A stretch of 64,000 nucleotides of DNA from Cytobacillus oceanisediminis 2691 (GTDB taxonomy: Bacteria; Bacillota; Bacilli; Bacillales; Cytobacillaceae). The translations under genes and the position numbers were made by a program. Each line of letters begins with the position of its first letter. Within the stretch, counting starts at the first letter, position 1. The stretch is taken from NCBI RefSeq assembly GCF_007678455.1, contig NZ_VEEP01000001.1:310001-374000 (forward strand). The letters run 5' to 3'. Below the pieces are notes generated by a model. That model saw nothing but the letters and a program-made list of their open reading frames with translations, was not told the origin of the DNA and did no database searches. Shown piece after piece: positions 21,555 to 59,205 of this stretch.

Positions 21555-22338
21555 AGCTTTCCGAAGTAGCTGTGTGTTCGGACAGGTTTCAGGGTGAACA
21601 AGGAAAAGTTGTCCGAAGTAGTGATGAGTTCGGACAGGTTCAGTGTGAACAAGGAAAAGTTGTCCCAAGTAATCCCGGGTTCGGACAGGTTTCAGGCAGA
21701 ACAAGTAAAAGCTGTCCGAAGTAGCTCTGTGTTCGGACAGGTTTCAAGCAGAACAAGCAGAAGCTGTCCAAAGTAGCCCTGAGTTCGGACAGGTTTCAGG
21801 AAGAACAAGCAAAAGCTGTCCAAAGTAGCTCTGTGTTCGGACAGGTTTCAGGCAGAATAAGCAAAAGCTGTCCGAAGTAGCCCTGTGTTCGGACAGGTTT
21901 CAGGCAGAACAAGGAAAAGCTGTCCGAAGTAGCCCTGTGTTTGGACAGGTTTCAGACTGAACGAGCAAAAGCTGTCCGAAGTAGTGCCGAGTTCAGACAG
22001 GTTTCAGACTGAACGAGCAAAAGCTGTCCGAAGTAGTGCCGAGTTCAGACAGGTTTCAGACTGAGCAAGCAAAAGCTGTCCGAAGTAGTCCCGGGTTCGG
22101 ACAGGTTTCAAGCAGAATAAGCAGAAGCTGTCCGAAGTAGTTCCGAGTTCGGACAGGTTTCAAGCCGAATAAGCAGAAGCTGTCCGAAGTAGCTCTGTGT
22201 TCGGACAGGTTTCAAGCAGATCAAGCAGACGCTGTCCAAAGTAGTCCTGAGTTCGGTCAGATTTCAGGCAGAACAAGGAAAAGCTGTCCGAAGTAATCCC
22301 GAGTTCGGACAGCTTTCGGGGCGAACAAGCAAAAACTA
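21555..22338. repeat. Tandem array 1: about 15 units of 52 bp, each an inverted repeat
   Basis: Right arms (TTCGGACAG or variants) start at 21577, 21629, 21680, 21732, 21784, 21836 and 21888 and continue every 52 bases to 22304, with one single-base deletion. Each unit is built as 9+23+9+11: TTCGGACAG, a 23-base spacer containing CAGGCAGAACAAGCAAAAG, CTGTCCGAA, and an 11-base loop. CTGTCCGAA pairs with the next TTCGGACAG, so each unit can form a 9-bp hairpin. Arms can also pair the other way across the 23-base spacer. The loop starts GTAG and then varies (CTCTGTG, CCCTGAG, TGCCGAG, TCCCGGG and others). No coding function is apparent. Confidence 0.92.
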
Positions 22339-22501
22339 CTGGTTAATCAGCAGAGCGCCATGGATGTTCTACAGTACGCTCCCAAATAGCATTCATTGTT
22401 ATTCCGTTATTGATAATTTTGTGATAATTGAAAAAACAATGTAATATAGATTATAATAAACCGACTGGATAGTTTATTTTAAAAAATTAGGGGGAGATAT
22501 C

Positions 22502-24034
22502 ATGGAACAAAAGGTGATGAATCAACCAATCATCTCAGCACTGGAAAAATTCACGGAGCTGGATGAAAAAATATCACATTTTAATAGTATTTCAGGATTG
22601 CTTAGCTGGGACCAGAAAGTGATCGCTCCAAAGAAGGGCCGATCTATTTTCGCGAAAGCCAGCAGTACCTTAAGAACAGAAGCGTTCAAGCTGACCGTTT
22701 CAGAGGAAATGGGAGAACTTTTAAGCGCACTCTCTTCTCCAGAAGCAGATGCTTATCTTGATGACGCAGCAAAAGCGAAGGTTCGTGAAAGGCTGAATTT
22801 CTATAACCGTTCAAAAAGTATTCCGGCAGAAATGATCAAGGATTTTTCCGTGCTGACATCACAGGCGAATGATGCCTGGGAAGAGGCAAGGGAGAATAAC
22901 GACTTTGAGAAATATCTGCCATACCTTGAAAAAATCGTTGATTTTAAAAGAAAGGCCGTTGAGATTTATGGCTATGAAAATCATCCATACGATGCGCTGC
23001 TTGATGAGTATGAACCTGGCTTGACTGTTGAAAGGCTGGATCCTTTATTTGATAAATTAAGAAAATCAAGCACTGATTTGCTAAAGAGGATTCAACATGC
23101 GCCCTATAAGCCGCGAGCAGAAATTTTTGATCAGGCTTATTCGGTGGCGAAACAAAAAGAGTTCAACCGATATATTTTGCCGCTGATTGGCTTTGATATG
23201 AATGCCGGCAGATTGGATGAGACAGTTCATCCATTCGCGCAGACGGTTAATACTGGAGATGTGCGGATTACCACCAGATATTTAGAAAATAATGTTCGTT
23301 CGGCCATTTTCGGTACGATCCATGAGGCCGGTCATGGTATTTATGAGCAAAACATTGATCAGCAGTTCGAAGATACTGTCCTCCAGGAAGGGGCTTCTTT
23401 CGGAATCCATGAGTCCCAGTCACGCTTCCTTGAAAATATGGTGGGGCGAAGCGAAGAATTCTGGAAATACTTTTATCCGAAGCTGCAAGAACATTTCCCT
23501 GAACAGCTTGGGGATGTCGAGCTGGATGATTTCTACCGTGCAGTCAATGCAGTTCAGCCATCATTCATCAGGGTCGAAGCCGATGAACTGACATATAATC
23601 TGCATATCATGGTCCGTTACGAAATTGAAAAGGCATTGATTGCCGGGGAAGTAGAAGCGAAGGATCTTCCTGCAATATGGAACTCGAAGATGAATGAATA
23701 TTTGGGAGTAACACCTTCCAGTGATAGCGAGGGAGTACTTCAGGACATTCACTGGTCGTTTGGCGGATTTGGATATTTCCCATCGTATTCTTTGGGGAAT
23801 TTGTATGCAGCCCAGATACTAAACAAAATTAAAACGGATGTGCCTGATTTTTACGGAAGCATTGAAAAAGGTGACTTTGCCGTGATCCAAAAATGGTTGA
23901 AGGAGAACATTCATCAATATGGTATGCTTTATACACCAAACGATTTAATCGTAAAAGCTACCGGTGAAGAACTGAATGCGGATTATCTGGTTCAATATCT
24001 GGAAGACAAATACAGCAAAGTATACAAACTATAA
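22502..24034 (+). CDS. M32 family metallocarboxypeptidase (carboxypeptidase Taq type)
   Basis: The 510-residue cytosolic protein carries the M32 zinc site HEAGHGIYEQ (His274, Glu275, His278) followed by the family motif HESQSR near residue 302, which supplies the third ligand. FNSISGLLSWDQKVIAPKKG near residues 30-49 and GDVRITTRY before the zinc site are also typical. It removes C-terminal residues from peptides. Its length agrees with B. subtilis YpwA (about 500). The ATG follows GGGGGAG. The TetR-type gene 27 bases downstream is probably co-transcribed. Confidence 0.92.
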   Translation: MEQKVMNQPIISALEKFTELDEKISHFNSISGLLSWDQKVIAPKKGRSIFAKASSTLRTEAFKLTVSEEMGELLSALSSPEADAYLDDAAKAKVRERLNFYNRSKSIPAEMIKDFSVLTSQANDAWEEARENNDFEKYLPYLEKIVDFKRKAVEIYGYENHPYDALLDEYEPGLTVERLDPLFDKLRKSSTDLLKRIQHAPYKPRAEIFDQAYSVAKQKEFNRYILPLIGFDMNAGRLDETVHPFAQTVNTGDVRITTRYLENNVRSAIFGTIHEAGHGIYEQNIDQQFEDTVLQEGASFGIHESQSRFLENMVGRSEEFWKYFYPKLQEHFPEQLGDVELDDFYRAVNAVQPSFIRVEADELTYNLHIMVRYEIEKALIAGEVEAKDLPAIWNSKMNEYLGVTPSSDSEGVLQDIHWSFGGFGYFPSYSLGNLYAAQILNKIKTDVPDFYGSIEKGDFAVIQKWLKENIHQYGMLYTPNDLIVKATGEELNADYLVQYLEDKYSKVYKL

Positions 24035-24061
24035 TATTAGCTGGAAATAGAGGTAACGGAA

Positions 24062-24676
24062 ATGGCGCCAATTGTTTCAGAGGAGTACAAGGAAAGGAAG
24101 CGGCAGGAGATTTTGCAGAGTGCCCATGCCTGTTTTGCCAAGAAAGGGTTTGAAGCATCAACTGTGGATGACATTGTCGCACAATCTGGCCTGAGCAAAG
24201 GGGCGATCTACAATTATTTCAAAAGTAAGGATGAAATCTACCTTGCCCTGATGGATGGCCAGACTAGAGAGTCAGGCACAAAATTCGCGAAGGCAATAGC
24301 AGAACGATCGACTGCTTTGGAGAAGCTTGATTTTCTGGTTGATGCCTATCTGGGTAATGACCCGAACGATGCTGAGAACAAGGACGAGGCACTTGTTCAT
24401 TTCGAGTTCAGGCTTTATTCAACACGAAATCCTGAATTAAAGAAAACATTGACGGAGAGATATAAAAATTTCTTTGTTACTTTGTTAGCAGGCATTATTG
24501 AGGAAGGGCAGGGATCGGGAGAATTTGATATTCATCTTGATCCAGCCACTTATGCGGATATTTTTTGGGCGATGGTAAATGGAGTCACATTACAGGCCAC
24601 AATTCTTGATGGGTATAGATATAAAAACACGTTAAAAGAAATGCAAGCGATGTTCGTCGAAAAACTGAGGGCATAA
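24062..24676 (+). CDS. TetR/AcrR family transcriptional regulator
   Basis: The 204-residue protein has an N-terminal helix-turn-helix typical of TetR: RQEILQSAHACFAKKGFEAS, then TVDDIVAQSGLSKGAIYNYF and KSKDEIYLAL (residues about 12-60). A helical ligand domain ends with FWAMVNGVTLQATILDG. It should bind DNA as a dimer and respond to an unknown ligand. It follows the carboxypeptidase gene by 27 bases and has GAGG upstream of the ATG. The target genes are not evident. Confidence 0.88.
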   Translation: MAPIVSEEYKERKRQEILQSAHACFAKKGFEASTVDDIVAQSGLSKGAIYNYFKSKDEIYLALMDGQTRESGTKFAKAIAERSTALEKLDFLVDAYLGNDPNDAENKDEALVHFEFRLYSTRNPELKKTLTERYKNFFVTLLAGIIEEGQGSGEFDIHLDPATYADIFWAMVNGVTLQATILDGYRYKNTLKEMQAMFVEKLRA

Positions 24677-24678
24677 TG

Positions 24679-24711
24679 AAAAACCAGTGGGGCAAAATCC
24701 CACTGGTTTTT
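24679..24711. terminator. Bidirectional terminator between convergent genes
   Basis: AAAACCAGTGGG and CCCACTGGTTTTT form a 12-bp stem with a 7-base loop. It serves the TetR gene and the minus-strand antiporter gene. Confidence 0.88.
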
Positions 24712-24719
24712 CAATTAAC

Positions 24720-26210
24720 TCAAGAGTTTTCTGGACTGATTGATTTTTCCTTTAAAAGTTTTTTTAACTGGGGTTTATTTTTCCTGGCAGACAAGATGTA
24801 AAGAAAATCCCCTGCCAATATGGCTGTATTTCCAGTAGGAGCTGTCAGTTTACCATCACGGATAATGGCATTTACCAGTGTCCCTTCCGGAAAGGGGATA
24901 TCCATCAAAGTTTTTCCTATGATCGCACTATCACTTTCCATCTCATATTCTATCATTTCAGCATCGGCTTTTCCAAGGGAAACTAGTTCAAGTGACTGCA
25001 TTGGTGTCGTTTTCTTGGGTCCGTTTAGTCCAAGTTTATCCGCTAACTTTGGAATCGTGGCACCTTGAATCAGGGCGCTTGTCAGTACGACGAAGAAAAC
25101 AACATTGAACATCTTATGGCTGTTTTCAATCCCGGCAAGTAACGGGAAGGTGGCCAGAATGATCGGAACTGCACCTTTAAGTCCTGCCCATGAAAGGAAA
25201 ATCCGTTCTTTTTGGGAGTAATTCATTTTTATTGTTGAGATAAAAACGGCTACAGGTCTAGCCACAAGCATTAGAATCACAGAAATTAGAAGACCCTGAA
25301 TTAAAATATCCAGACTGAATAGTTCTGTTGGAAATACAAGGAGTCCAAGGATGACAAACATTAGGATTTGCATCATCCAGGCGAACCCTTCTGAAAAACG
25401 GAAAATGGAATGGCGGTAAGCAATCTCAGCATTTCCGATTATGATGGCGGCAACGTAGACAGCAAGCAGACCACTTCCATTCAAAAACGCTGTTAGTCCA
25501 TAAGTCAGCAGAGCAAAAGCTGTTGCGAAAACTGGATACAGACCGCTGGAATCAAGGTTGATGGAGTTCAGGGCTTTAACAGCGATTCTTCCAAAGATTA
25601 TTCCAAGAATCAGGCCCAGTCCCATCTGCAAGAAAAAGTCCCCAATCAATTTTAGGATACTTGCATCAGGTAAGGTAATTAGTTCAATCATTGCTACTGT
25701 TAAGAACACAGCCATCGGATCATTAGAACCTGATTCGGCTTCGAGTGTTGAACCTAGTTTTGGAGAGACATTGTGACCCTTCAGGACAGCAAAAACAGCT
25801 GCAGCATCAGTGGATCCAACGATCGCACCAAATAATATCGCTTCTAGCCAATCAAGTCCCAAAATCCATTTTGCAGCAATAGCTACGATACCCGAGGTGA
25901 TCAACACTCCAAGCGTTGCAAGTGATAAAGAAGGTACGATCACCGGCCTGACGTCTTTCCAATTTGTTTGCAGTCCGCCTTCAAATAGAATGATGACGAG
26001 AGCAATGACACCGATCATTTGAGTCATTGCTGCATTATCAAAATAAACAATGCCAAGGACATCGCTGCCCATGATCATTCCTACCATGATAAAGAAGATA
26101 AGTGAGGGAACACCCAATCTGGTTGAAAATCTGGTCGTTAATACTCCGACAATAAATAAGAAAGCCAAAAGTAAAATAAACGAATCGGTACTTAGAACAC
26201 TTTCATTCAA
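24720..26210 (-). CDS. CPA1-family potassium/proton antiporter with C-terminal TrkA-C domain
   Basis: The 496-residue protein has about 13 membrane helices. It contains the exchanger core GAIVGSTDAAAVFAVL and LEAESGSNDPMAVFLTV (Asp residues of the ion site) and FLSWAGLKGAVPIILATFPL. A cytoplasmic tail from about residue 405 matches the TrkA-C ligand-binding domain (EYEMESDSAIIGKTLMDIPF). It resembles NhaP2/CvrA-type K+/H+ antiporters that release K+ and balance volume and pH. The start is TTG, 7 bases after AAGGGGG. It begins 12 bases after the stop of the recombinase-like gene, suggesting co-transcription. Confidence 0.9.
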   Translation of the reverse strand: MNESVLSTDSFILLLAFLFIVGVLTTRFSTRLGVPSLIFFIMVGMIMGSDVLGIVYFDNAAMTQMIGVIALVIILFEGGLQTNWKDVRPVIVPSLSLATLGVLITSGIVAIAAKWILGLDWLEAILFGAIVGSTDAAAVFAVLKGHNVSPKLGSTLEAESGSNDPMAVFLTVAMIELITLPDASILKLIGDFFLQMGLGLILGIIFGRIAVKALNSINLDSSGLYPVFATAFALLTYGLTAFLNGSGLLAVYVAAIIIGNAEIAYRHSIFRFSEGFAWMMQILMFVILGLLVFPTELFSLDILIQGLLISVILMLVARPVAVFISTIKMNYSQKERIFLSWAGLKGAVPIILATFPLLAGIENSHKMFNVVFFVVLTSALIQGATIPKLADKLGLNGPKKTTPMQSLELVSLGKADAEMIEYEMESDSAIIGKTLMDIPFPEGTLVNAIIRDGKLTAPTGNTAILAGDFLYILSARKNKPQLKKLLKEKSISPENS

Positions 26211-26222
26211 TGAAAGACCCCC

Positions 26223-26777
26223 TTATAAATTAATATTTATTGTGACTGTAACTGGCTGCTGGTCCAATCCGATGAAATGCATCGTTTCAGATGAAGATGA
26301 ATGCTGAAGTCTTTTCTGGATAAGAGAAATGGCAACACCCTGGGAATAGGCATGGTAACCAAAGGTCTTTCTGAGAGTGGTCATTCCAACAGGTTCCATG
26401 ATCCCAGCCTCTTTTGCAGCTGCATTGATGATTCGATATGCTTGCTGTCTTGTTATAGGTTCTGAAGTTTTTCTTGATTTAAAAAGATAATCCGTACTAA
26501 TTAGGGAATTTTCATTTAAGTATCTTTTAAGAACCTTCCTAATTAATGCATTTAAATAGATAGGAGGATTGGTGTAATGAGGAATTGAAAGAAATTCTGC
26601 TATTTTTCCTTCTTCGTTGCAGACATCATGAACACGAAGGCTCAAAAGTTCCTGAAGCTTGATGCCGGTATTTATCCCCAGCAAAAAAAGACTGTAATCC
26701 CTGGTTGAATGTGCTTCTAGATATCTCTTCATTTGTTCAATCTGATTTTTTGATTTTATGGGGCTTACTGCATGCAT
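26223..26777 (-). CDS. Tyrosine recombinase-like protein lacking catalytic residues
   Basis: The 184-residue protein resembles the short tyrosine-type integrases common in Bacillaceae and has no separate core-binding domain. The fold landmarks are present but altered: box I reads NTGIKLQELLSL, with Lys where the first catalytic Arg is expected; box II reads TTLRKTFGYHAY, keeping the second Arg but with Thr for the preceding His; LQHSSSSETMHFIG has Phe where the nucleophilic Tyr is expected. So three of the expected catalytic residues are replaced. It is probably not an active recombinase and may keep a DNA-binding role. AAGGAGG precedes the ATG. No attachment site or mobile genes flank it. 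Confidence 0.8.
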   Translation of the reverse strand: MHAVSPIKSKNQIEQMKRYLEAHSTRDYSLFLLGINTGIKLQELLSLRVHDVCNEEGKIAEFLSIPHYTNPPIYLNALIRKVLKRYLNENSLISTDYLFKSRKTSEPITRQQAYRIINAAAKEAGIMEPVGMTTLRKTFGYHAYSQGVAISLIQKRLQHSSSSETMHFIGLDQQPVTVTININL

Positions 26778-26922
26778 TGTTCCACCTCCTTATGTAACTT
26801 AATTATACCCTATTTCAGGTTGTGTAACATATAAAATGCTTAAAAAGAGTTTTTTTTATTTAGCTTTTCCTAAATGGTATAATGAACAGAATCAAAAATT
26901 TGTCCTTAATCTGGAGGCAATT

Positions 26923-27393
26923 ATGCTGACTTTTGAACAAAAACTTTCAATTATTGAATCTTTTCCGGAACTGGAACGGAAAAATGTATCTTTGGGCCGT
27001 GTTAACTTCCATTATGAAGATAGCATCTATGACAAGAAAAATGTTGTATACCACTTACATCCAAATGGGAATGGGTTTGTCTATGGAGAATTTTTAGAGG
27101 GATATGACCTTGATCCTAAGGGCATGGTGAATATTCGCGAATTTACTGCGGAGGAGCTTAAATCGATCATTGAACTTTCAATTGAGTCCCTTTCACCTAA
27201 CAGTACCATTGAATCAGCCATCATAGAGGACAATGAGGAAGAACGCTGGGTGAATACAGAAAACCACACACTGATTCTTGTCCATGAAGATGATATGTGG
27301 AATGTGTATGCCGGACTGAATCTGGACGGTACCTTTCTTTCTTACAATGAAGCGAAACAATATTTAGAAGAAGAAGGATTCAGGAAAAGATAA
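26923..27393 (+). CDS. Hypothetical acidic protein, 156 residues
   Basis: I do not recognise a family. From ATG 26923, which has GGAGG 7 bases upstream, the product is acidic and soluble. It has two similar-looking strand-rich stretches (SLGRVNFHYEDSIYDKKNVV and LILVHEDDMWNVYAGLNLDG) and no Cys or membrane segment. An upstream in-frame ATG at 26836 adds 29 residues without a ribosome site and overlaps a TATAAT-like -10, so I leave it out. It stands alone, divergent from the recombinase-like gene. Confidence 0.65.
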   Translation: MLTFEQKLSIIESFPELERKNVSLGRVNFHYEDSIYDKKNVVYHLHPNGNGFVYGEFLEGYDLDPKGMVNIREFTAEELKSIIELSIESLSPNSTIESAIIEDNEEERWVNTENHTLILVHEDDMWNVYAGLNLDGTFLSYNEAKQYLEEEGFRKR

Positions 27394-27419
27394 AAAGGAT
27401 GCCCGCAGGCATCCTTTTT
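27392..27419. terminator. Bidirectional terminator
   Basis: AAAAAGGATGCC and GGCATCCTTTTT form a 12-bp stem with a CGCA loop between two convergent genes. Confidence 0.88.
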
Positions 27420-27453
27420 ACTTTTTATCATTCCAATAAGAATTAACAGAAGC

Positions 27454-29247
27454 TTATAATTTAAATCTGCCAGTCAACTTTTCTAACTCTAATGCTGTTT
27501 GTTGGAGCACTTTAGTTGTTTCATTCACATTTTCAGCTATTCTCAACTGGTCCTGTGTTGATTGGTCTGTCTGGCTTGTACCTGCGGCAATTTGCTGGGA
27601 TGCCTGTGAGACAGTATCGAGTGAGTTTGTGATTTGTTCGATTGCAATGACCTGCTGTTCAATCGCGGAAGCAATATTGCTCGAGTTATCTTCGATCTCC
27701 AATGTTGTTTCATATATTTCTTTCAGTGTATCTTTGGCGTGAATCGAAAGGTTTTTATTGAATTGAACAGCTTCTTTCGTCTTGATGATGTAATCTACTG
27801 CATTACGTGTATTTTGAACATTCTCATTAACAATGGAAATAATTGTTGAAGCTGACTTCGCACTCTCTTCAGCAAGTTTCCTGACTTCATTTGCGACCAC
27901 TGCAAAGCCTTTTCCATGTTCACCGGCCCTTGCAGCTTCTATAGCTGCGTTTAAAGCCAGCAGGTTTGTCTGGTCAGAAATTGTGTTGATGATTTTAACA
28001 AACTGGGTGATTTTGTCGGACTGTTTTTCAAGTTCTGTTATGATATCAGCCAGCTGATTGGTATTCTCATCAACTGCTTCCAGTCCCTCGAGCATTTCAT
28101 CAATTCTCTTCGTGCCTTCTCTGGAGGTCGCAGTTGAATTTTTGGCGATGTAGCTTGCCTGTTGTGCCGAGGCGTTGATTTCCTCGATTCCTGCATTGAT
28201 TTCTTCCAAAGTTGCCTGCATTTCCTCTATATTGGCATTCTGCTCCTGTGTGCTTGCAGCTGCCTGTTGGTTCGCTGCAGTCAATTCCCTGATGGCTTCT
28301 ACAGAACTTGAAGCTACCTTGGATAACCCCATAGTTTCAGTGGATACTTCCTTTGTACTGTCCTGAACCTGTGAAACCAAAGTACGGAGTGAAGCAGTCA
28401 TCTTATTGATGCTATCAGCCAGTGCGCCGATTTCATCCTTTGAACGGACCTTTATGTCATCCTGTGACAAATCGCCATTTGCAATATTTGATGTCAGGTT
28501 TTTTATTTTATCCAATGGCGTAATCAGTCTTGAAACCAGGAAATACATTGCTGCGCTTGAAAGAAGCAGGATTATGATGGACAGGATCCAAATTCCTGCA
28601 ACTTCACCATTGATCTTTTTATTTATTTGGGAAACATCAAACTCGACCCCGTATAATGCGATTGTTTTTCCACCCATGTCATTGATTGGGGCAAATCCGG
28701 TCATTTTTTCCCCAGTATCCGACTTATATATTTCAGTTGTCGTTCTTTTGTTTTCCTTAAAAGCCTCTACTGCGGCCCGGTCAAATGCTTTTCCGCCTGA
28801 ATATTGTGAACCATATGTGAGCTCATCCGTCATCATTGCAGAACTCATAGTCGGAATTATGAATTTGTCACCATCCATGGTGATTAAATAAAGATTATGT
28901 ATTAAAGGATTCTCCTTCAAAATTTGATCCATTTGTTTTTGCATTGAGGTGACACCAGGATTGTTTTTAGATGGATTGCTGATGATGGTCTGTGCTTTAC
29001 CGACTGAAACCTGATCCGACAACAAGCTTGAAAGCGTAGTGAGTTCGGCTTCCATTGAGTCGAAATTGCTGGACTTTATCGTATGCTGGGCATAGAAAGT
29101 TGTAGCCATTGCAAGGACAAGTATTGAAATGATACTTAAAGATACAATTTTCAGCTTTAAACTCATATTTCTGTTAAGCAGTTTTTTGCCTGGCTTTTTC
29201 TGTACTGCTGTCTTTTTGACAGAGTTCTGTCTTTTCTTAAAACGCAA
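27454..29247 (-). CDS. Methyl-accepting chemotaxis protein
   Basis: The 597-residue receptor has a basic N-terminus, a first membrane helix about residues 30-50, an extracellular sensor of about 165 residues (single-Cache-like, with [20 protein letters not shown] and [20 protein letters not shown]) and a second helix about 220-243. A HAMP domain follows ([21 protein letters not shown]), then a long cytoplasmic coiled coil with the conserved tip [20 protein letters not shown] and [20 protein letters not shown]. It signals to CheA. TTG 29247 has GAGGGAG 8 bases upstream; the GTG 9 bases earlier sits inside that site. A sigma-D-type promoter lies upstream. Confidence 0.92.
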
Positions 29248-29295
29248 TTTGTCCACTCCCTCTTTTCTACATAGACGAAAATATCGTTATTGTTA

Positions 29296-33222: not shown

Positions 33223-33249
33223 AAAAGACGCCTCAAGGGGCGTCTTTTC
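33223..33249 (+). terminator. Rho-independent terminator
   Basis: AAAAGACGCC and GGCGTCTTTT form a 10-bp stem with a short CAAGG-type loop. Confidence 0.88.
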
Positions 33250-33457
33250 TGCGTATTGAGGCGACTGACTGTACGCCACATCGTACATTTCCATAATGGA
33301 GTGTCAGTCGGCTTACACAATTCAGCTCATCGCTTGATTAATATATCATTTAAAAGCATAGGTTAGCAAGAGGAAATTTCAGGGAAGACACTTTAGGTTT
33401 CAGGTACAGTACCAAAGGGGTAAGAAAAAGGGAAAACAAACAGAGAAGGGAAACATC

Positions 33458-51018: not shown

Positions 51019-51172
51019 GACTGGTTTTAAAAAAGCTCATTTTTACGGCGCTTATGGATATAACAAAAGTGGCCCGTCCAAATATTTTACCAGTGTGCTC
51101 CTGCATGTTTGATAACCTTATTGCGGTGGAAGAAGTTAATATACGATTCCAATACGAAATGAGGTTTGCAAA

Positions 51173-51583
51173 ATGGTACCGATTCAATCAAATATAGATG
51201 GCAAAGAGATCACAATGGGTGAGCTGAAGAAAAACCTGGAGCCGCTTGGCTTCACGCTGAACGGCAACTGGGAATATGACCATGCCTTCATCGATTACAA
51301 AATGAATGATGATCATGGTGACCAGCAGTATGTCAGGATTCCTTTCAAGTCAAAGGGCGGTCCGCTTGACGATGAGGGAACATTCGTCAAGATTGGGACA
51401 CCCTTCCTCCTGGATCACCAATTTGAAACAGATGTCGATGATGAAGGGAATATTGGTGCCCTGACTGGTTCTTTTGACCAGTTCAAATCACCTGCCGACA
51501 AGGACGCTCCATTTCCGGAGGAACTTATGGAACGTGGAAAAGTATTGGTCAGCAAAGCTGAACAGGCTCTGGGGACTTTATAA
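51173..51583 (+). CDS. yugN: YugN-like family protein
   Basis: The 136-residue soluble protein matches the YugN-like family: an N-terminal helix GELKKNLEPLGFTLNGNWEY, the strand DHAFIDYKMNDDHGDQQYVR, IPFKSKGGPLDDEGTFVKIG, and the DHQFETDVDDEGNIGALTGS segment. The function of the family is unknown; it is common in Bacillaceae. The ATG follows GAGG. It is a single gene with a terminator. Confidence 0.85.
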   Translation: MVPIQSNIDGKEITMGELKKNLEPLGFTLNGNWEYDHAFIDYKMNDDHGDQQYVRIPFKSKGGPLDDEGTFVKIGTPFLLDHQFETDVDDEGNIGALTGSFDQFKSPADKDAPFPEELMERGKVLVSKAEQALGTL

Positions 51584-51588
51584 ACGAA

Positions 51589-51620
51589 GAAGACAGCTTC
51601 CGATTAGGGAGCTGTCTTTT
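51589..51620 (+). terminator. Rho-independent terminator
   Basis: AAGACAGCT and AGCTGTCTT pair, with an inner TCC/GGG part, ending in TTTT. Confidence 0.8.
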
Positions 51621-51681
51621 CTATAGATATAAGGAAAAAATGATATACTGGAAAGCATAAGTTGTAATCTGGAGCGTGAGT

Positions 51682-52869
51682 TTGATCATGGAGAATAAGT
51701 TATATTATCAAGATGCTTACATAAAAAGCTTTACTGCTCAACTGATCAGGCAGGGAGCCGATGAGTCAGGCAGGAATTATGCAGTATTAACTCAGACAGC
51801 TTTTTACCCGACAGGCGGCGGACAGCCATTCGATACTGGCATTCTGAATGGTGTAGAAGTTGTGGATGTCGAGGAAATTGACGGAGAGATACGCCATTAC
51901 ATAAAAGAGCTGCTGGAAGAAGGAATGCCGATAGAAGGGGAAATTGATTGGGGCCGCCGGTTTGACCACATGCAGCAACATGCAGGACAGCATATTCTTT
52001 CGGCTGCTTTCGAGGAATTGTATGGCTATAAAACAGTCAGTTTCCATTTAGGGAAAGATATGCTCACAATTGATTTAGATACAGAAAGTCTGTCAGCGGA
52101 GGAAGCTGACAGGGTTGAGGAGCTGGCTAACCAGGTAATACTTGAAAATCGTCCAGTCATTACTAAATGGGTCGATGAAGACGAATTAAAGCAATACAAA
52201 CTCAGGAAAGCACTGTCAGTATCGAACAACATCAGGCTCGTCATCATACCTGAATTTGATTATAACGGCTGCGGAGGAACACACCCAAACAGTACAGCGG
52301 AAGTAGGCTACTTGAAAATCCTTGGATGGGAAAGGCAAAAGAAAATCATCCGGGTTGAGTTTGTATGTGGGCAAAGAGTTTTGAAGAAGCTCGGGCAAAA
52401 GCATGAAATCCTAAAAGAGCTGTCGGTCCTGCTGAATGCATCTGAACAGGATATGGTATCGGCCGTTAATAGACTGCTTGGCCAGAAAAAGACAACTGAA
52501 AAGTCAATCGAGGAAATGAGAGACCAATTACTTAAATATGAAGCAGCTGATCTCGCAGAAGCCAATACGGGAGCAATTATCAGCCGTGTTTATCAAAATA
52601 GGGGTATCCAGGAACTTCAAAGACTTGCAAGATTACTTGCTGAACAGGCAGATGACAAGGTATTCCTGTTAGTGGCCGAAAACGAAGACAAACTTCAATT
52701 TGTTTTTGCCCGGGGTAAGAACGCCCGGGGAAATTTGAAAGATTGGTCAAAACATGCTCTTTCATTAATTGACGGCAAAGGGGGAGGCAGCGATCAGCTT
52801 GTTCAGGGCGGAGGCAGGTTGATGCCAGGTGAGGAATTCATCAGAGAAATTACTAGGGTTATCCAATAA
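51682..52869 (+). CDS. Alanyl-tRNA editing protein (AlaX-L type, with DHHA1-like tail)
   Basis: The 395-residue protein has an AlaRS-like N-terminal strand region (TAFYPTGGGQPFDTG), the zinc-binding editing site HMQQHAGQHILSAAF near residues 94-108 and the second zinc motif CGGTH near 195-199. A coiled coil (residues about 255-285) and a DHHA1-like C-terminus ending GGGSDQLVQGGGRLMP follow. It hydrolyses mischarged Ser- or Gly-tRNA(Ala). The start is uncertain: TTG 51682 has GGAG 7 bases upstream, GTG 51676 is too close, and ATG 51688 is a little far. All give nearly the same protein. Confidence 0.88.
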   Translation: MIMENKLYYQDAYIKSFTAQLIRQGADESGRNYAVLTQTAFYPTGGGQPFDTGILNGVEVVDVEEIDGEIRHYIKELLEEGMPIEGEIDWGRRFDHMQQHAGQHILSAAFEELYGYKTVSFHLGKDMLTIDLDTESLSAEEADRVEELANQVILENRPVITKWVDEDELKQYKLRKALSVSNNIRLVIIPEFDYNGCGGTHPNSTAEVGYLKILGWERQKKIIRVEFVCGQRVLKKLGQKHEILKELSVLLNASEQDMVSAVNRLLGQKKTTEKSIEEMRDQLLKYEAADLAEANTGAIISRVYQNRGIQELQRLARLLAEQADDKVFLLVAENEDKLQFVFARGKNARGNLKDWSKHALSLIDGKGGGSDQLVQGGGRLMPGEEFIREITRVIQ

Positions 52870-53104
52870 TATGAACGCCTAATGAAAAATCCAGCATGAA
52901 TTCAGGAGTAATGACCCGGTTCATAAGAAGTGATTTTGGCAGTAAAGATAGTTTTCAAGCCGATATTTTTTAAAAAATCTCAAAAACACCAACTAATAAC
53001 CTATTTTTTACAGTGCAACTGGTTATAGATGAAAGTTTTACCATTTAAAAATAGGTTTGACTCCCTCATAATGGAATTCAACCAGAGAAATAGGGGGAAT
53101 CAGA

Positions 53105-53320
53105 ATGTATGAAGTTGAGAGAGGATCTGTAGAAGAGGCAATCATGATCCTGCAAAATCTCGGTCTTAAAGTGAATGAATACGAGAAGACGAATTCAATG
53201 ATTCCAGTAGATAAATATAAAGAGTTATTGGAATTCACGATTGCAGTAGCCAGGAAAACGAATGATATCACTGTCACAATAGATGAACTTATGGACGATA
53301 TAGAAGCGAGAATGGAATAA
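53105..53320 (+). CDS. Small hypothetical protein, 71 residues
   Basis: The ATG follows TAGGGGGAAT. The product is acidic and mostly helical (VERGSVEEAIMILQNLGLKV, KELLEFTIAVARKTNDITVT) with no Cys, signal peptide or known motif. No family is recognised. It is a single gene ended by a bidirectional hairpin. Confidence 0.6.
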   Translation: MYEVERGSVEEAIMILQNLGLKVNEYEKTNSMIPVDKYKELLEFTIAVARKTNDITVTIDELMDDIEARME

Positions 53321-53324
53321 CAGA

Positions 53325-53349
53325 AGAGCAGCCAGTGGGCTGCTCTTTT
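53325..53349. terminator. Bidirectional terminator between convergent genes
   Basis: AGAGCAGCC and GGCTGCTCT form a 9-bp stem with a short AGTG-type loop, then TTTT. Confidence 0.85.
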
Positions 53350-54223
53350 ATTTGGCCTGGGTTTTATCGATATATTCAAACAGGAACGACTGTCCATTTC
53401 GGTAAAAGCGCGGATCATAGATTCCGAGCTTCTCGCCATCATTGACGATGACCACAAATGGCGACCATTCGTAAAGCGTCTTCGCTTCAGGTTTCTTCGC
53501 AAAAAGCCCATTCAGGTCTGTTTCCTCAGAAGAAGTGAGCTCATATTGCAGCTTTCTGTCAGTAAACAGATTGTCCTGAAAGATTTTAACATTGCTGTCG
53601 TTTTTCGCAATTACTGAATATGTCCAAGGAATAAAGCCTGCTGAAAGAGCAATCTGCTTATAATCATTTTCATACTGATTATAGATTAACCAGCCCTGGA
53701 CGCTCTGGACAACAATGTGCAGCGCAATGAAAACCCATGCAAATTTAAAATAATAGGGGCTCTTCGCTTTATTTTTCCGGGAAGCAATAAAGGCTGTCCC
53801 AAGAATGAACCAGAATACAAAATCAATGATCGGTATTGTGCCGAAGGTGATCCTAATGTTTGAATACGGTTCTAGATAGCCTGTTCCCCAGGCGTTGAAC
53901 AAATCACTCGTATTATGGATAAAGACGGCCAGCCAGCCAAGGAAAAATAATTTGAGATCCTTCACTTTAAAAAGGAGAAAAGACAGCAATACAAATAACA
54001 ATGCCCAAATTGGCGTCAGAAACACAGAATGGGTGATGCCTCTGTGCCACATCTGATAAAGTCCATCAGTATCCCAAAATTGGGAAATGACGTCTATGTC
54101 AGGAATCTGGCTTGCGCCAACCGCGGTCAGCAAATAGGCACGCTTTTGCGTTTTCTCCATATGTTTTTTATCAACGGCTCCATATAAGGCTAAGCCGAAT
54201 AATGTATGGGTAACTGAATCCAC
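53348..54223 (-). CDS. yfhP: YfhP-type membrane-bound metal-dependent hydrolase family protein
   Basis: The 291-residue protein fits the YdjM/YfhP family. It has the N-terminal metal motif DSVTHTLFGLAL (His), then ASQIPDIDVISQ (Asp pair), MWHRGITHSVF (His pair) and FIHNTSDLFNAWGT (His, Asp), spread between about four to five membrane helices, with a soluble C-terminal domain. Members are predicted membrane hydrolases; the substrate is unknown. GTG 54223 lies 5 bases after AGGAGGTG. It is divergent from prfC. Confidence 0.85.
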   Translation of the reverse strand: MDSVTHTLFGLALYGAVDKKHMEKTQKRAYLLTAVGASQIPDIDVISQFWDTDGLYQMWHRGITHSVFLTPIWALLFVLLSFLLFKVKDLKLFFLGWLAVFIHNTSDLFNAWGTGYLEPYSNIRITFGTIPIIDFVFWFILGTAFIASRKNKAKSPYYFKFAWVFIALHIVVQSVQGWLIYNQYENDYKQIALSAGFIPWTYSVIAKNDSNVKIFQDNLFTDRKLQYELTSSEETDLNGLFAKKPEAKTLYEWSPFVVIVNDGEKLGIYDPRFYRNGQSFLFEYIDKTQAK

Positions 54224-54373
54224 TTTCGCACCTCCTGAAATATTATTATAATGCTTCCAGGAAAATAATTAAAAGTTCTGATATGCATTTGCAGGATTGC
54301 AAACTTTCCGCCAGAAAGATAAGATTAATTTTATGAGGAATTTTGCCTTTAAACAGAAAGGAAACATCAAATC

Positions 54374-55948
54374 ATGAAAAAATTACAAGATGAAGTATTA
54401 TCACGCAGAACGTTTGCGATTATATCACACCCGGATGCCGGGAAAACGACGCTTACGGAGAAACTGTTGTTATTCGGCGGCGCAATCCGTGACGCGGGTA
54501 CTGTAAAAGCGAAGAAAACAGGGAAGTTTGCGACGAGTGACTGGATGGAAATCGAAAAGCAGCGCGGAATTTCCGTAACCTCCAGTGTCATGCAATTCGA
54601 TTATGACGGTTTCAAGGTGAACATTCTCGACACACCTGGACACCAGGATTTCTCCGAAGACACCTACAGAACATTGACAGCTGTTGACAGCGCTGTGATG
54701 ATCATCGACTCAGCAAAAGGGATTGAGGACCAGACGCTCAAGCTCTTCAAGGTTTGCCGCATGAGAGGGATTCCAATCTTCACTTTTATCAATAAGCTGG
54801 ATCGCCAGGGGAAAGCGCCTCTTGAATTATTAGCTGAACTTGAAGAAGTGCTTGGCATCGAATCTTATCCGATGAACTGGCCAATCGGAATGGGTAAAGA
54901 ATTCCTCGGAATCTATGACCGTTTCAATAACCGGATCGAGCAATTCCGGGTTGATGAAGACAAAAGGTTTATTTCGTTAAATGAAGAAGGCGAAATTGAT
55001 GGAGACCATTCCATAAAAGAGTCTTCACTGTATGAACAGACATTAGAGGAAATCATGCTTTTGGATGAGGCTGGAAATGAATTTTCCAAGGAAAAGATTG
55101 TCGATGGTACATTAACGCCGGTATTCTTTGGCAGTGCCTTGACGACTTTCGGAGTCCAGACATTCCTTGATTCATATTTACAATTCGCACCTGCGCCACA
55201 GCCAAGGAACTCTACGGCAGGAGAAATTGATCCTAAATCTGAGGAATTCTCAGGATTTATTTTCAAAATCCAGGCCAATATGAACCCGGCCCATCGTGAC
55301 AGAATTGCTTTTCTGCGCATTTGCTCAGGAAAGTTCGAACGGGGAATGACCGTCCAGCTTAGCCGGACAGGAAAAACAATGAAGCTGGCGCAGTCCACCC
55401 AGTTCATGGCTGATGACCGCAGTACCGTTGAGGAAGCCGTTGCCGGTGATATCATCGGACTTTACGACCCGGGCACATACCAGATTGGCGATACCATCGT
55501 ATCTGGCAAGGAAGGGTTCCTATATGAAAAACTTCCGCAGTTCACACCCGAGCTTTTCGTTAGGGTTTCGGCCAAGAATGTCATGAAGCAAAAGCATTTC
55601 CATAAAGGAATCCAGCAGCTTGTCCAGGAAGGAGCCATCCAGCTGTTCAAGACATTGAAGACGGAAGAATACCTTCTCGGTGCTGTCGGACAGCTTCAAT
55701 TCGAAGTATTCGAAGCCAGGATGCGGAATGAATATAATGTTGAAGTCATCATGGAAAGACAAGGCTCCAAAATTGCCCGCTGGATCGAAGGCGACGATGT
55801 GAACGAGAATCTGTCCAGCTCCCGAAGCCTGCTTGTGGCGGACCGCTTTGACAAAAAAGTATTCCTGTTCGAAAATGAATTTGCCCTACGATGGTTCCAG
55901 GATAAAAATCCGGAAGTAAAACTTTATAACCCTATGGATGTATCCTAA
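54374..55948 (+). CDS. prfC: Peptide chain release factor 3
   Basis: The 524-residue GTPase has G1 [16 protein letters not shown], switch [16 protein letters not shown] and G4 [10 protein letters not shown], then domain II ([20 protein letters not shown]) and a C-terminal domain III with [15 protein letters not shown]. The layout and length match RF3, which recycles RF1/RF2 after termination. The N-terminal [12 protein letters not shown]-type start ([13 protein letters not shown]) is typical. AAAGGAAA precedes the ATG. B. subtilis lacks prfC while many other Bacillaceae have it. Confidence 0.93.
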
Positions 55949-55955
55949 ACAATTT

Positions 55956-55984
55956 GAGTCGGCATAATTTGCCGGCTCTTTTTT
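55956..55984 (+). terminator. Rho-independent terminator of prfC
   Basis: GAGTCGGCA and TGCCGGCTC pair with one wobble around TAATT, followed by TTTTTT. Confidence 0.85.
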
Positions 55985-56128
55985 GTGGGATTGGCAATCA
56001 ACCGGCTGCTTTGTGGGTCTGTTTTGGACCAGAAAAGATAAAAAGCCATGCGATGGGGATCAGCGGATGTGAGGATCTGCCCGAAAGCCTGCTATGACGG
56101 CAATTTTTTGTCAGATTTTTCTCTGATT

Positions 56129-57019
56129 TGCGGATAGAATATGGTCCGAGCTTGCTGCGTTCTCCGCCCGAAACCAGGAAGGGTGCAAGAATACGGTCGG
56201 AGCTTGCATTGTTCTGCGCCCGAAACCAGGAAGGGTGCAAGAATACGGTAGGAGCTTGCATTGTTCTGCGCCCGAAACCAGTAAGGGTCCAAGAATACGG
56301 TCGGAGCTTGCATTGTTCTGCGCCCGAAATCAGGAAGGGTCCAAGAATACGGTCGGAGCTTGCATTGTTCTGCGCCCGAAATCAGGAAGGGTCCAAGAAT
56401 ACGGTAGGAGCTTGCATTATTCTGCCCCCGAAATCAGGAAGGGTCCAAGAATATGGTAGGAGCTTGCATTGTTCTGCGCCCGAAACCAGGAAGGGTCCAA
56501 GAATATGGTAGGAGCTTGCATTGTTCTGCGCCCGAAACCAAGAAGGGTCCATTAATACGGTAGGAGCTTGCTTCGTTCTGCGCCCGAAATAAGGAAGGGT
56601 CCAAGAATACGGTCGGAGCTTGCTTCGTTCTGCGCCCGAAATAAAGAAGGGTCCAAGAATACGGTCGGTGCTTGCATTATTCTGCGCCCGAAATAAGGAA
56701 GGGTCCAAGAATATGGTAGGAGCTTGCATTGTTCTGCGCCCGAAACCAGGAAGGGTCCAAGAATATGGTAGGAGCTTGCTGCGTTCTCCACCCGAAATAA
56801 GGAAGGGTCCAAGAATACGGTAGGAGCTTGCTTCGTTCTGCGCCCGAAATAAAGAAGGGTCCAAGAATACGGTCGGAGCTTGCTTCGTTCTGCGCCCGAA
56901 ATAAGGAAGGGTCCAAGAATACGGTCGGAGCTTGCTGCGTTCTCCGCCCGATACCAAGAAGTGGCCATGCATATGGTCGGAGGTTGTTCCACACCATGCT
57001 CGAAATCCTGCTAGAAGGA
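56129..57019. repeat. Tandem array 2: about 17 units of 52 bp
   Basis: GGGTCC or GGGTGC begins at 56181, 56233, 56285, 56337 and 56389 and continues every 52 bases to 56909, with degenerate units at each end (56129 and 56961). The unit is about GGGTCCAAGAATACGGT, (A/C)GGAGCTTGC, a variable six-base stretch, then TGCGCCCGAAACCAGGAA. Variants are mixed along the array (CGGTAGG or CGGTCGG; CATTG, CTGCG or CTTCG; ACCAGG, ATCAGG or ATAAGG), as if shuffled by recombination. No stop codons fall in the units, so long meaningless frames are open on both strands. It lies between the prfC terminator and the promoter of the T-box leader. Confidence 0.92.
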
Positions 57020-57092
57020 TGCTTCAATCGCTTCTGCTCAAGTGCATGTCAGAACACCGCCTCCAAACTACAAACATACGACAGTTTTTTTC

Positions 57093-57121
57093 TTGACGTT
57101 CTATTACTTTCATAATATAGT
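57093..57121 (+). promoter_or_regulatory. Sigma-A promoter of the T-box/NhaC transcription unit
   Basis: TTGACG (57093-57098), a 17-base spacer and TATAGT (57116-57121). It lies about 75 bases after the last array unit. Confidence 0.8.
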
Positions 57122-57134
57122 ATTAGTATTCTAT

Positions 57135-57158
57135 AACGCTTTTATGCATAAAAGCGTT
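57135..57158 (+). repeat. Perfect 24-bp palindrome at the 5' end of the T-box leader
   Basis: AACGCTTT, the centre TATGCATA and AAAGCGTT form a fully symmetric 24-bp sequence that begins about 7 bases after the predicted transcription start. It can be a DNA operator or an RNA hairpin with an 8-bp stem and the loop UAUGCAUA. The same centre TATGCATA occurs in the palindrome at 2878-2897. Confidence 0.85.
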
Positions 57159-57159
57159 T

Positions 57160-57371
57160 AAGTGAAAAAGAAATATAGTGCTGACAGAAACTAGTAGAAT
57201 CCCCATGAGCAGCAAATAGAAACTGGATGGCAGATGAAAATCCAGGCAGTGGCAGATTCGAAATACACCTGTCTCAAAAAGGCACTGTTAACGAAGTGGG
57301 TAGACAAATTGTTTGCCAATTAGGGTGGTACCGCGGAGCTCCTTCGTCCCTATACGTTGAGGAGTTTTTTG
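57160..57371 (+). ncRNA. T-box leader, probably tyrosine-specific (UAC specifier)
   Basis: The leader has the invariant T-box AGGGTGGTACCGCGG at 57322-57336, followed by the complementary TCCTTCGTCCCT and a terminator (CTCCT with AGGAG, then TTTTTT, to 57370). At the base of Stem I, GACAG (57183-57187) pairs with CTGTC (57269-57273). The specifier loop reads AGUA on the 5' side and GAAAUACAC on the 3' side. With the codon placed one base after GAA, the specifier is UAC (57264-57266), tyrosine. Uncharged tRNA(Tyr) would then allow read-through into the carrier gene. Confidence 0.88.
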
Positions 57372-57399
57372 CATTTTACAACTAATTGGAGGAATCAGC

Positions 57400-58797
57400 A
57401 TGATACATCAAAATGAATCCATCACATTAAAAACTTCGGAGGCCGCAGCGGTTATAGTGCTGCTTTTGGCAGGTATAAGCTATGGCATGATCAAGCTGGA
57501 ATTAATGCCCCATATTCCTGTCATCATGGGAATCATGGCGCTGATGATTTATGGATTATTGAAAAAAATTAAGATGGCCGATCTTGAAAAAAGTATGGTT
57601 GAAGGTGCAAAGGCCGGCCTTGGCGCAGTAATGATATTTTTCTTCATCGGCATGCTTGTCAGCAGCTGGATTGCTGCTGGTACCATTCCGACTCTGATAT
57701 TTTTTGCATTCGATCTGGTGACTGGCAAATGGTTCTATGCAATTGTCTTTATCATCACATCTATAGTTGGATTGAGCATAGGAAGTTCGTTGACCACATC
57801 GGCAGTGATTGGGGTAGCTTTCATTGCAGTCAGTGAAGCACTGGGTTTCTCCCTGGCTATCACAGCCGGAGCGGTGATTTCTGGTGCCTTTCTGGGGGAT
57901 AAAATGTCGCCGCTATCTGATACGACGGTGCTCGCTTCAACCACTGTTAAGGTGGACCTGTTTGAACATATTAAAAATATGTCCTGGACAACGATCCCTG
58001 CTTTCTTCATTTCACTTATTTTATTTGGGTTTCTATCGCCAGAGCTCCATTCAGCGGATTTCACCCAACTAGCGAATTTGCAGAACACCCTTATGAAGAT
58101 GAACCTTGTACACTGGTACTCTTTGATTCCGCTGGCGGTCATCTTGGTTCTGGCTATTAAAAAAGTATCATCAATTATAACCCTTGCAGCAGGGACTCTC
58201 ACAGCGATGGCAATCAGTATGTTCATTGTCCCAAAGCAAGAGTGGAAAGCGCTGCCGGAAATTTTATATTCTGGCTATGTTTCCGAAAGCGGAAATGCCC
58301 AGTTGGATTCACTGTTGTCAAGGGGCGGAATTGAAAGCATGTTTTTCTCCATATCACTGGTTCTTCTTGCCTTGAGCATGGGCGGATTGTTATTCAAACT
58401 CGGGGTACTGCCCTCGTTATTACAAGGTCTTGCCGGCAGGCTTGAAAAAGGACCTGTGCTGATTGGTTCAGCCGCATTGTCTGCTCTCGGAATCAATTTG
58501 CTGATCGGTGAGCAATACCTTTCGATCCTTTTGACAGGGAATACATTCGCAGACCATTTTGAAAGAGCCGGGCTGCATGCGAAAAACCTGTCCCGAGTCC
58601 TCGAAGATGCAGGAACGGTAACCAATCCGCTTGTTCCCTGGAGCGTTTGCGGTGTTTTCCTCAGCAGCGTCCTGGGAGTCAGCACAATGGAGTATGTTCC
58701 CTTTGCATTCTTTTGCCTGCTGTCACCTGTATTGACCCTTGCAGCAGGTTTCACCGGTATAACTTTATCAAAGACTAGGAAAAACGCGGTAGCTTAG
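57400..58797 (+). CDS. NhaC-family Na+/H+ antiporter-like carrier, probable tyrosine transporter (YheL-like)
   Basis: The 465-residue protein has about 11-12 membrane helices and NhaC-family blocks: VEGAKAGLGAVMIFFFIGML near residues 67-86, SSLTTSAVIGVAFIAVSEAL, GAFLGDKMSPLSDTTVLAST near 163-182 and EDAGTVTNPLVPWSVCGVFL near 400-420. The family is annotated as Na+/H+ antiporters. The tyrosine-type T-box directly upstream indicates that this member supplies tyrosine, as predicted for YheL in other Bacillaceae. TTGGAGGA precedes the ATG. Its terminator overlaps the stop, and repeat array 3 follows. Confidence 0.85.
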   Translation: MIHQNESITLKTSEAAAVIVLLLAGISYGMIKLELMPHIPVIMGIMALMIYGLLKKIKMADLEKSMVEGAKAGLGAVMIFFFIGMLVSSWIAAGTIPTLIFFAFDLVTGKWFYAIVFIITSIVGLSIGSSLTTSAVIGVAFIAVSEALGFSLAITAGAVISGAFLGDKMSPLSDTTVLASTTVKVDLFEHIKNMSWTTIPAFFISLILFGFLSPELHSADFTQLANLQNTLMKMNLVHWYSLIPLAVILVLAIKKVSSIITLAAGTLTAMAISMFIVPKQEWKALPEILYSGYVSESGNAQLDSLLSRGGIESMFFSISLVLLALSMGGLLFKLGVLPSLLQGLAGRLEKGPVLIGSAALSALGINLLIGEQYLSILLTGNTFADHFERAGLHAKNLSRVLEDAGTVTNPLVPWSVCGVFLSSVLGVSTMEYVPFAFFCLLSPVLTLAAGFTGITLSKTRKNAVA

Positions 58798-58812
58798 GCT
58801 CCCGCGTTTTTT
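58781..58812 (+). terminator. Terminator overlapping the NhaC stop codon
   Basis: AACGCGG and CCGCGTT pair around the stop codon region (TAGCTTAGGCTC) and are followed by TTTT. Confidence 0.78.
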
Positions 58813-59205
58813 ATGCCGAGTATGTGCCCGAAATCCAAGAGAACAGAGGATTTGGGTAACATAAACTCTGAATATGTACCCGAAACCCGTGAGAACAGAG
58901 GATTTGGGTAACATAAACCCTGAATATGTGCCCGAAATCCAAGAGAACAGAGGATTTGGGTAACATAAACCCCGAGTATGTGCCCGTAATCTAAGAGAAC
59001 ACAGGATTTGGGTAACATAAACCCCGAGTATGTGCCCGAAACCAGGAAGAACAAAGGATTTGGGTAACATAAACCCCTAATATGTGCCCGAAACCAGGAA
59101 GAACAAAGGATTTGGGTAACATAAACCCCTAATATGTGCCCGAAACCAGGAAGAACAAAGGATTTGGGTAACATAAACCCTGAATATGTACCCTTAATCC
59201 AAATA
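58812..59205. repeat. Tandem array 3: about 8 units of 52 bp
   Basis: TTTGGGTAAC begins at 58851, 58903, 58955, 59007, 59059, 59111 and 59163, exactly 52 bases apart, with part units at both ends. The unit is TATGTGCCCGAAACCAGGAA, GAACAAAGGA, then TTTGGGTAACATAAACCCC. It shares the 16-base GCCCGAAACCAGGAAG with array 2 and the 12-base CAGGAAGAACAA with one unit of array 1. It lies directly after the NhaC terminator and before the RND pump gene. Frames on the minus strand across it are by-products. Confidence 0.92.

Follow-up and report, generated by a model that had tools for sequence, protein, structure and literature searches.

Three tandem arrays with a period of 52 bp were analysed in a 64,000-nucleotide window of the Cytobacillus oceanisediminis 2691 genome (G000:C111:310001-374000; the source genome, G000, has a size of 4.9 Mb). 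Array 1 starts 68 bp past the stop codon of a gene for a NERD-domain protein. Homologues of this gene in the genus Mesobacillus had a 52-bp array just behind them at nearly every locus. The 52-bp arrays and the NERD protein, a predicted PD-(D/E)XK nuclease, may constitute a two-part nuclease–satellite system that resembles REPIN/RAYT, and this reading is given about an even chance.

Pairing of NERD genes with fixed-period arrays

The pairing was evaluated in the source genome and in G041, a complete genome of the same species. Both contain two types of NERD protein, type A with about 302–310 amino acids and type B with about 311–330. All type-A genes of the two genomes (6/6 in G000 and 6/6 in G041) were followed directly on the 3′ side by a 52- or 53-bp array, and within each genome every array belonged to a different sequence family; in G041, the copy in L224 is cut short by an early stop, from which the distance to its array was counted. 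A wider type-A set was compiled with the best matches taken first and at most the best 30 kept per search. It comprised 80 distinct loci, 38 from Mesobacillus and 42 from other genomes. Among the matches listed, 77 of the 80 loci had an array with a period of 41–61 bp in the 3′ flank, at a median of 52 bp past the stop codon. The period was 52 bp in 63 of these arrays, 51 bp in five, 53 bp in four, 41 bp in four and 61 bp in one. An array within 150 bp of the gene lay on the 3′ side at 74 of these 80 listed loci and on the 5′ side at three, and three shortened or interrupted genes had the array at 310–449 bp, counted from the early stop. The exceptions were L177 and L310, where the contig ends after 119 and 192 bp, and L236, where Tandem Repeats Finder (TRF) overlooked two copies at a spacing of exactly 52 bp together with a third, worn copy. 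Outside Mesobacillus, an array was present at 40 of the 42 listed loci and, in named genomes, at 17 of 18; array-bearing examples include Neobacillus niacini, N. notoginsengisoli, Cytobacillus kochii, Lysinibacillus composti, Ureibacillus acetophenoni and Cerasibacillus quisquiliarum. Interrupted type-A copies were also seen in relatives (L298, L300, L301, L309 and L316), each with the 3′ array still present, and 13 of the 115 NERD matches in 44 named genomes had internal stops.

The arrays and the type-A genes co-occurred in the sampled genomes. Type-A homologues at an expectation value (E) of 1e-20 were found in 20 of 299 Bacilli genomes (11 of 118 genera) and in 28 of the 44 named genomes. 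As the background rate, a 50–54-bp array was located within 150 bp on the 3′ side of 11 of 402 genes in the source genome and of 10 of 360 genes in ten other genomes with type A; the corresponding 5′ counts were 4 and 2. No such 3′ array was found for 357 genes in ten genomes without a type-A match at the same E. Moreover, the number of 50–54-bp arrays per 400 kb was 11 in ten non-Mesobacillus genomes with type A, whereas it was 0 in ten genomes without a match.

Type-B genes were associated with shorter periods. An array of 20–21 (40) bp lay directly 5′ of 3/4 type-B genes in G000 and 4/5 in G041, and the remaining gene in each genome had a 135-bp array on its 5′ side. Among 39 distinct type-B loci, 29 had an array of 18–23 or 40–42 bp within 150 bp (13 only 5′, 9 only 3′ and 7 on both sides). 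This half of the pairing is weaker because short arrays also occurred in genomes without a type-B match (6 in 280 kb); in addition, the TRF score threshold was 40 at NERD loci and 50 on samples. Arrays of other periods precede two NERD genes of G000, namely a 135-bp array (L221 733-1255) before G000:C444:122266 and a 56-bp array (L233 991-1265) before G000:C477:123045.

The distribution of arrays was explored in twenty unselected 20-kb stretches (400 kb) of the source genome. Fifteen non-overlapping 50–54-bp arrays were obtained, or about 1 per 27 kb, and arrays were dispersed round the genome with dozens per genome. The sample held 34 arrays with a period of at least 15 bp: 14 had 50–54 bp (14 instead of 15 because overlapping rows were merged differently), 14 had 18–23 or 40–42 bp, three had other multiples of three and three had other periods. 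Hence, instead of a broad spread of unrelated periods, the periods clustered, and the constant period with diverging sequence that a first-pass annotation had noted for the window was upheld as a genome-wide phenomenon. The same annotation had stated that all three arrays follow plus-strand genes. This is true of the three window arrays; in general a 3′ bias was observed, yet convergent and divergent gaps also hold arrays. Of 16 arrays with a gene context, 9 were in tandem, 5 in convergent and 2 in divergent gaps, against a background of 178, 67 and 57, and no clear preference for one gene orientation was seen. Species-specific unit variants were sought in the dispersed arrays and were not discriminating, as both variants were present in every genome searched.

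The period classes beside NERD genes (20–21, 41, 51–53 and 61 bp) lie near 2, 4, 5 and 6 helical turns. For the helical-turn spacing proposed earlier, this is suggestive only, there being few independent classes. Five distant NERD homologues (L247–L251, 24–32% identity) had arrays directly 3′, with a period of 41 bp at four loci and of 61 bp with a 20-bp sub-period at one. These arrays may represent the same system with units of 4 and 6 turns.

The NERD protein and the repeat unit

The array-1 partner protein was matched to the NERD family with 51.2 bits (cut-off 22.1), and no other Pfam family matched it at E 0.001. Its predicted parts are a PD-(D/E)XK nuclease-like domain, a Cys4 zinc ribbon and a C-terminal helix-turn-helix-like region. 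Residues of the PD-(D/E)XK-type motif were used as the criterion: E42, Q72, D74 and K89 were invariant in all 54 aligned type-A proteins, and Q79, D81 and K96 were invariant in 20 aligned type-B proteins. The AlphaFold2 model (predicted local distance difference test score, pLDDT, 93.1) resembles PD-(D/E)XK nucleases, and a sequence search of the PDB with the NERD protein gave no match at 0.001. A PD-(D/E)XK-type nuclease fold is predicted on this basis. The protein was under constraint, with a ratio of non-synonymous to synonymous substitution rates (dN/dS) of 0.085–0.21 across 10 NERD pairs.

The sequence of the unit was specific to the protein. In 62 type-A protein–array pairs, unit similarity rose with protein identity (Mantel rho 0.38, 0 of 500 permutations). 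All unit pairs were above the 95% null level when protein identity exceeded 80%, and 5–14% of pairs were above it when identity was below 45%. The proposal of one ancestral 52-bp module was therefore not sustained, since unit similarity near chance below 45% protein identity means that a common ancestry of the units cannot be shown.

The consensus unit of array 1 contains the inverted repeat CTGTCCGAA..TTCGGACAG. An inverted repeat was significant in 43 of 73 home arrays, including array 1 (reached by at most 5 of 100 shuffles; about 4 of 73 were expected). The longest-stem test used here replaced a whole-unit reflection score, which was too blunt (median z 1.4; 6 of 73 arrays beat all 200 shuffles), and it was a second test on the same data. 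A fixed two-arm geometry in the unit, such as 2 + 3 turns, was ruled out because the arm spacing ranged from 10 to 26 bp. The arms were under constraint: divergence from the majority was 5.8% in the arms and 13.2% in the rest of the unit, and it was lower in the arms in 42 of 44 arrays. In 27 of the 44 arrays, no more than 5% of the rotations of the arm pattern round the unit showed a lower divergence than the true arms.

Differences in array length between the G000 and G041 strains were mostly of whole units. Twelve arrays were measured by their flanks, and two more gave no measure. Seven arrays were of equal length to within 3 bp, two differed by 1 unit (52 and 53 bp), one by 3 units (159 bp, 53-bp unit) and one by 5 units (259 bp). 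At the 3′ end of the nhaC-type gene, where array 3 is located, relatives had the same family in a longer or shorter form. The array-less relatives L189 and L196 kept a single palindrome, as seen by eye, and L190 and L192 contained an unrelated 53-bp family (ACCCTTATG..CATAAGGG). Therefore, one site can host different families.

Proposed mechanism, alternatives and earlier descriptions

In the nuclease–satellite reading, the protein half is the NERD-family PD-(D/E)XK nuclease, encoded beside one "home" array, and the DNA half consists of the arrays. Recognition of the units would take place at their inverted-repeat arms, through the zinc ribbon and the C-terminal helix-turn-helix-like region of the protein. 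A whole-turn spacing of units would place all sites on one face of the DNA and would permit cooperative binding to neighbouring units, and this proposed cooperativity may be why the unit keeps its length as its sequence drifts. From time to time the array would be cut or nicked and then repaired from neighbouring units or from other arrays; whole units would be gained or lost through such repair, and new members of the family would be seeded at other places. The phased DNA-binding partner suggested by the first-pass annotation is plausible, with the NERD proteins as the candidate; we infer the binding to the arms itself, as well as the cutting, the spread and any benefit to the host. A wider proposal is more tentative, and we lean somewhat against it: a previously unrecognised system in which a sequence-specific NERD nuclease creates, maintains and spreads its own satellite, with the unit length set at 2, 4, 5 or 6 turns by the oligomeric geometry of the enzyme, so that one enzyme family would explain both published size classes.

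Several observations weigh against the nuclease–satellite reading, foremost among them the dispersed arrays that could not be assigned and the array-1-like arrays of genomes that lack the array-1 gene. No phylogenetic matching was applied to the genome sets with and without type A, and orthologues cannot count as independent, Mesobacillus having supplied 38 of the 80 type-A loci. Only 6 of the 15 unselected 50–54-bp arrays in G000 clearly matched a resident NERD family (at least 34/52 positions), and one of these six was the home array of a NERD gene; under a looser criterion (beating 12 shuffles), 11 of 15 matched. No partner gene could be assigned to array 2 by comparison with NERD home arrays. 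Array 2 also differed by 606 bp between the two strains, which is not a whole number of units, and its left edge was different as well. Partial correlations with unit similarity were 0.16 for the C-terminus given the N-terminus and 0.21 for the reverse. The C-terminus was not singled out as the reader of the unit; therefore, co-inheritance and co-evolution were not separated. Array-1-like arrays were present in the samples of G016 and G018, where the best NERD matches reached only 71% and 68%, and persistence therefore does not require the array-1 gene; a dependence of the array-1 family on the array-1 NERD protein was unsupported by these samples. An inverted repeat was not significant in 30 of the 73 home arrays, and the arm spacing was not constant. 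Arm mismatches on the NERD strand comprised 129 G-U and 88 A-C (pooled binomial p 0.006, per-array p 0.08), an excess that leaves some room for RNA. Furthermore, no homologue of the array-1 NERD protein (NERD-1) was found in phage or plasmid records at E 1e-5, and its gene occupies a fixed place, with the flotillin neighbour in 13 of 13 Mesobacillus genomes with an orthologue. The NERD-1 gene is therefore not itself visibly mobile. According to the accessible text of PMC9040797, the function of bacterial NERD proteins is nearly unstudied.

As an alternative, a chromosome-organising system was considered, in which NERD is an architectural DNA-binding protein that folds or anchors the chromosome through phased sites on the arrays and retains its nuclease fold for binding or for occasional processing. 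It corresponds to the published guess that a protein polymerises on the repeat, for which a candidate is now available, and it agrees with the constant spacing near whole helical turns, the dispersal of arrays round the genome, the conserved arms, and the purifying selection and stable position of the NERD gene. A core architectural role is hard to reconcile with several paralogues in one genome whose arrays are unrelated in sequence, or with the patchy distribution (20/299 Bacilli genomes), and the catalytic-type residues invariant in 54 aligned proteins also speak against this system, which is judged unlikely. In an RNA-level system, transcription of the 3′ arrays would yield RNA rich in hairpins, and this RNA would regulate or guide the NERD protein. 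Such a role is consistent with the small-RNA proposal for Bacillus coagulans satellites, with the reported transcription of 52-nucleotide repeats in that species (accessible part of PMC8625621), with the position of type-A home arrays 3′ of the NERD stop codon, where read-through is possible, and with the slight pooled excess of G-U over A-C in the arms. The excess is not significant per array, however, and a terminator-like hairpin belonging to the nhaC-type gene, noted by eye, immediately precedes array 3. The 13 of 39 type-B genes with an array only on the 5′ side and the presence of dispersed arrays in all gene orientations also argue against an RNA-level role. No Rfam family was found over the arrays of the window at the gathering score, nor over arrays 2 and 3 at E 0.5, and the RNA-level system is considered more improbable than the architectural one.

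The arrays could also be a mutational by-product of slippage at palindromes near gene ends, with 52 bp set by a replication or repair constraint and with the NERD link reflecting old neighbours. The whole-unit length changes, the sites with a single palindrome and the general 3′ bias fit slippage. A by-product would leave unexplained the adjacency at 77/80 loci versus 11/402 genes, the tracking of the protein by the unit sequence, the absence of such arrays in samples of ten genomes without type A and the different periods of different NERD subfamilies, so that it is very unlikely. The least probable of the alternatives is a defence or addiction module, in which the home array keeps the nuclease harmless and invading DNA is its target, or in which the arrays serve as marks of self. 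Some defence systems contain NERD-type nucleases, among them a rare YprA-linked system (PMC12458937, accessible part), and a weak NCBIfam match to MAD6 was obtained (26 bits, cut-off 460). The interrupted copies in relatives suggest turnover, and the patchy distribution would also suit defence. Against such a module, PADLOC gave no convincing match (best Cas10, E 8e-4), the neighbours in the window are flotillin and carboxypeptidase genes, and phage and plasmid records gave no match.

The first-pass annotation stated that it knew of no comparable element in print, which is incorrect. Tandem repeats of 52 or 20–21 nucleotides with constant size and variable sequence have already been described in Bacillus by Subirana and Messeguer (PMC8161180). 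The accessible text of that paper covers 176 Bacillus genomes, places the 52-nucleotide class in about 30% of species, finds "no obvious explanation", suggests a polymerising protein or a small RNA, and cites a J Bacteriol 2020 paper of the same authors as the earlier description. The present arrays share with these repeats a period of 52 ± 1, a non-coding location, several unrelated families per genome and a patchy occurrence in Firmicutes; a short sequence and its reverse are "often" found within one published repeat, as in the 43 of 73 home arrays here. They differ in the NERD subfamily that accompanies each size class, one per class, and in the additional 41- and 61-bp members. In their accessible text, PMC8161180 and its companion PMC8625621 contain zero mentions of NERD, nuclease, adjacent, upstream or downstream, and PMC8161180 names no partner gene. 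Searches of the open-licence PubMed Central literature, which excludes the founding J Bacteriol 2020 paper, yielded no paper linking NERD proteins to tandem repeats. Within this scope the paired NERD–array system is novel, and the arrays themselves were already in print.

The pairing is a first lead on the purpose of these unexplained repeats. A size class tied to a named nuclease subfamily, with the gene beside the array, turns a published enigma into a testable two-part system, and the pairing offers a physical reason for the fixed unit length. If the enzyme drives the arrays, they would represent a bacterial nuclease–satellite element parallel to REPIN/RAYT and built on an unrelated enzyme. 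If the reading is true, a role would be given to a widespread, nearly unstudied domain, together with a set of nuclease–site pairs with diverse specificities.

The partner enzyme in REPIN/RAYT is a Y1 (HUH) tyrosine transposase. The partner here is of the PD-(D/E)XK type, as judged from sequence features and the modelled fold, and because the enzyme is unrelated, the NERD–array pair is not a member of the REPIN/RAYT family. The present system also differs in its long fixed-period arrays and in the presence of several paralogues in a genome, each tied to a separate repeat family. The likeness consists of dispersed extragenic palindromic repeats, a stable, vertically inherited enzyme gene and local changes in copy number (PMC8049555, accessible part). 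SmdA of Staphylococcus aureus has the same Pfam domain, PF08378, but is described in the accessible text of PMC9040797 as a membrane-anchored cell-morphology protein without several of the most conserved NERD residues, whereas in the present proteins the catalytic-type residues are invariant and are joined by a zinc ribbon and a helix-turn-helix-like end. CRISPR arrays likewise have constant-length, partly palindromic repeats near a nuclease gene. Unlike them, the present arrays have no unique spacers, whole 52-bp units are 86–91% alike, and dozens of arrays occur per genome.

Arrays and neighbouring features of the window

The three arrays are real, and their ends lie within 33 bp of those first noted (Table 1). 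They are non-coding: each lies between called genes, the period is not a multiple of three, and at least four repeats are present in each. Six open frames of 100–196 amino acids overlie arrays 2 and 3 and were regarded as mechanical. A test with nuclear proteins, proposed in the first-pass annotation, is inapplicable because the organism is a bacterium.

Table 1. Features of the window. Arrays were called with TRF; coordinates are window positions.
Feature	Coordinates	Strand	Details
Flotillin-family gene	18836..20383	+	Pfam; upstream of NERD gene
NERD-domain protein gene, type A, 302 amino acids	20578..21486	+	Pfam PF08378; proposed partner of array 1
Array 1	21554..22334	+	Period 52, 15.0 copies, 86% matches, 0% indels (TRF)
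M32 carboxypeptidase gene	22502..24034	+	Downstream of array 1
Peptide chain release factor 3 (RF3) gene	54374..55948	+	Upstream of array 2
Array 2	56136..56986	+	Period 52, 16.4 copies, 91% matches, 0% indels (TRF)
NhaC/ArcD-type antiporter gene	57400..58797	+	Separates arrays 2 and 3; arrays recur at its 3′ end in the genus
Array 3	58816..59193	+	Period 52, 7.3 copies, 89% matches, 1% indels (TRF)

Shared cores had been reported between arrays 2 and 3 and between arrays 1 and 3. The word GCCCGAAACCAGGAAG occurred four times in array 2, which follows the RF3 gene, and three times in array 3; its 16 bases were reached by 0 of 200 column-shuffled controls. The word CAGGAAGAACAA occurred once in array 1 and three times in array 3, and its 12 bases were reached by 1 of 200 controls. 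At the level of sequence, the link between arrays 2 and 3 is hence real and that between arrays 1 and 3 is marginal, because the latter depends on one array-1 unit. The longest word common to arrays 1 and 2 had 10 bases and was reached by 28 of 200 controls, which corresponds to chance. Array 3 and the array beside the NERD gene G000:C221:389539 both contain ATATGTGCCCG (0 of 100 shuffles), and array 2 groups with L135, L136 and L052 (0 of 50 shuffles each). When NERD genes from other species were considered as partners of arrays 2 and 3 and of nine orphan arrays, the matches were mostly at chance level; 3 of the 11 queries beat all 30 shuffles, and at least one of these was of low complexity.

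The relatives by the nhaC-type protein were Mesobacillus species and ISL strains, and the source genome was treated as a Mesobacillus genome. One record, L062 (JAGGQZ010000026.1, titled "Chryseobacterium sp. ISL-80"), contains the same array family and an nhaC-type gene whose product is 95% identical to that of the window; the record appears to be a mislabelled Mesobacillus. A T-box leader (RF00230) was matched between array 2 and the NhaC/ArcD-type gene, at window positions 57172-57354, with 74.6 bits, below the gathering score of 93; the match suggests amino-acid control of the transporter. A match to the BsrF small RNA (RF01411, 93.1 bits) was located on the minus strand at window positions 33224-33333.

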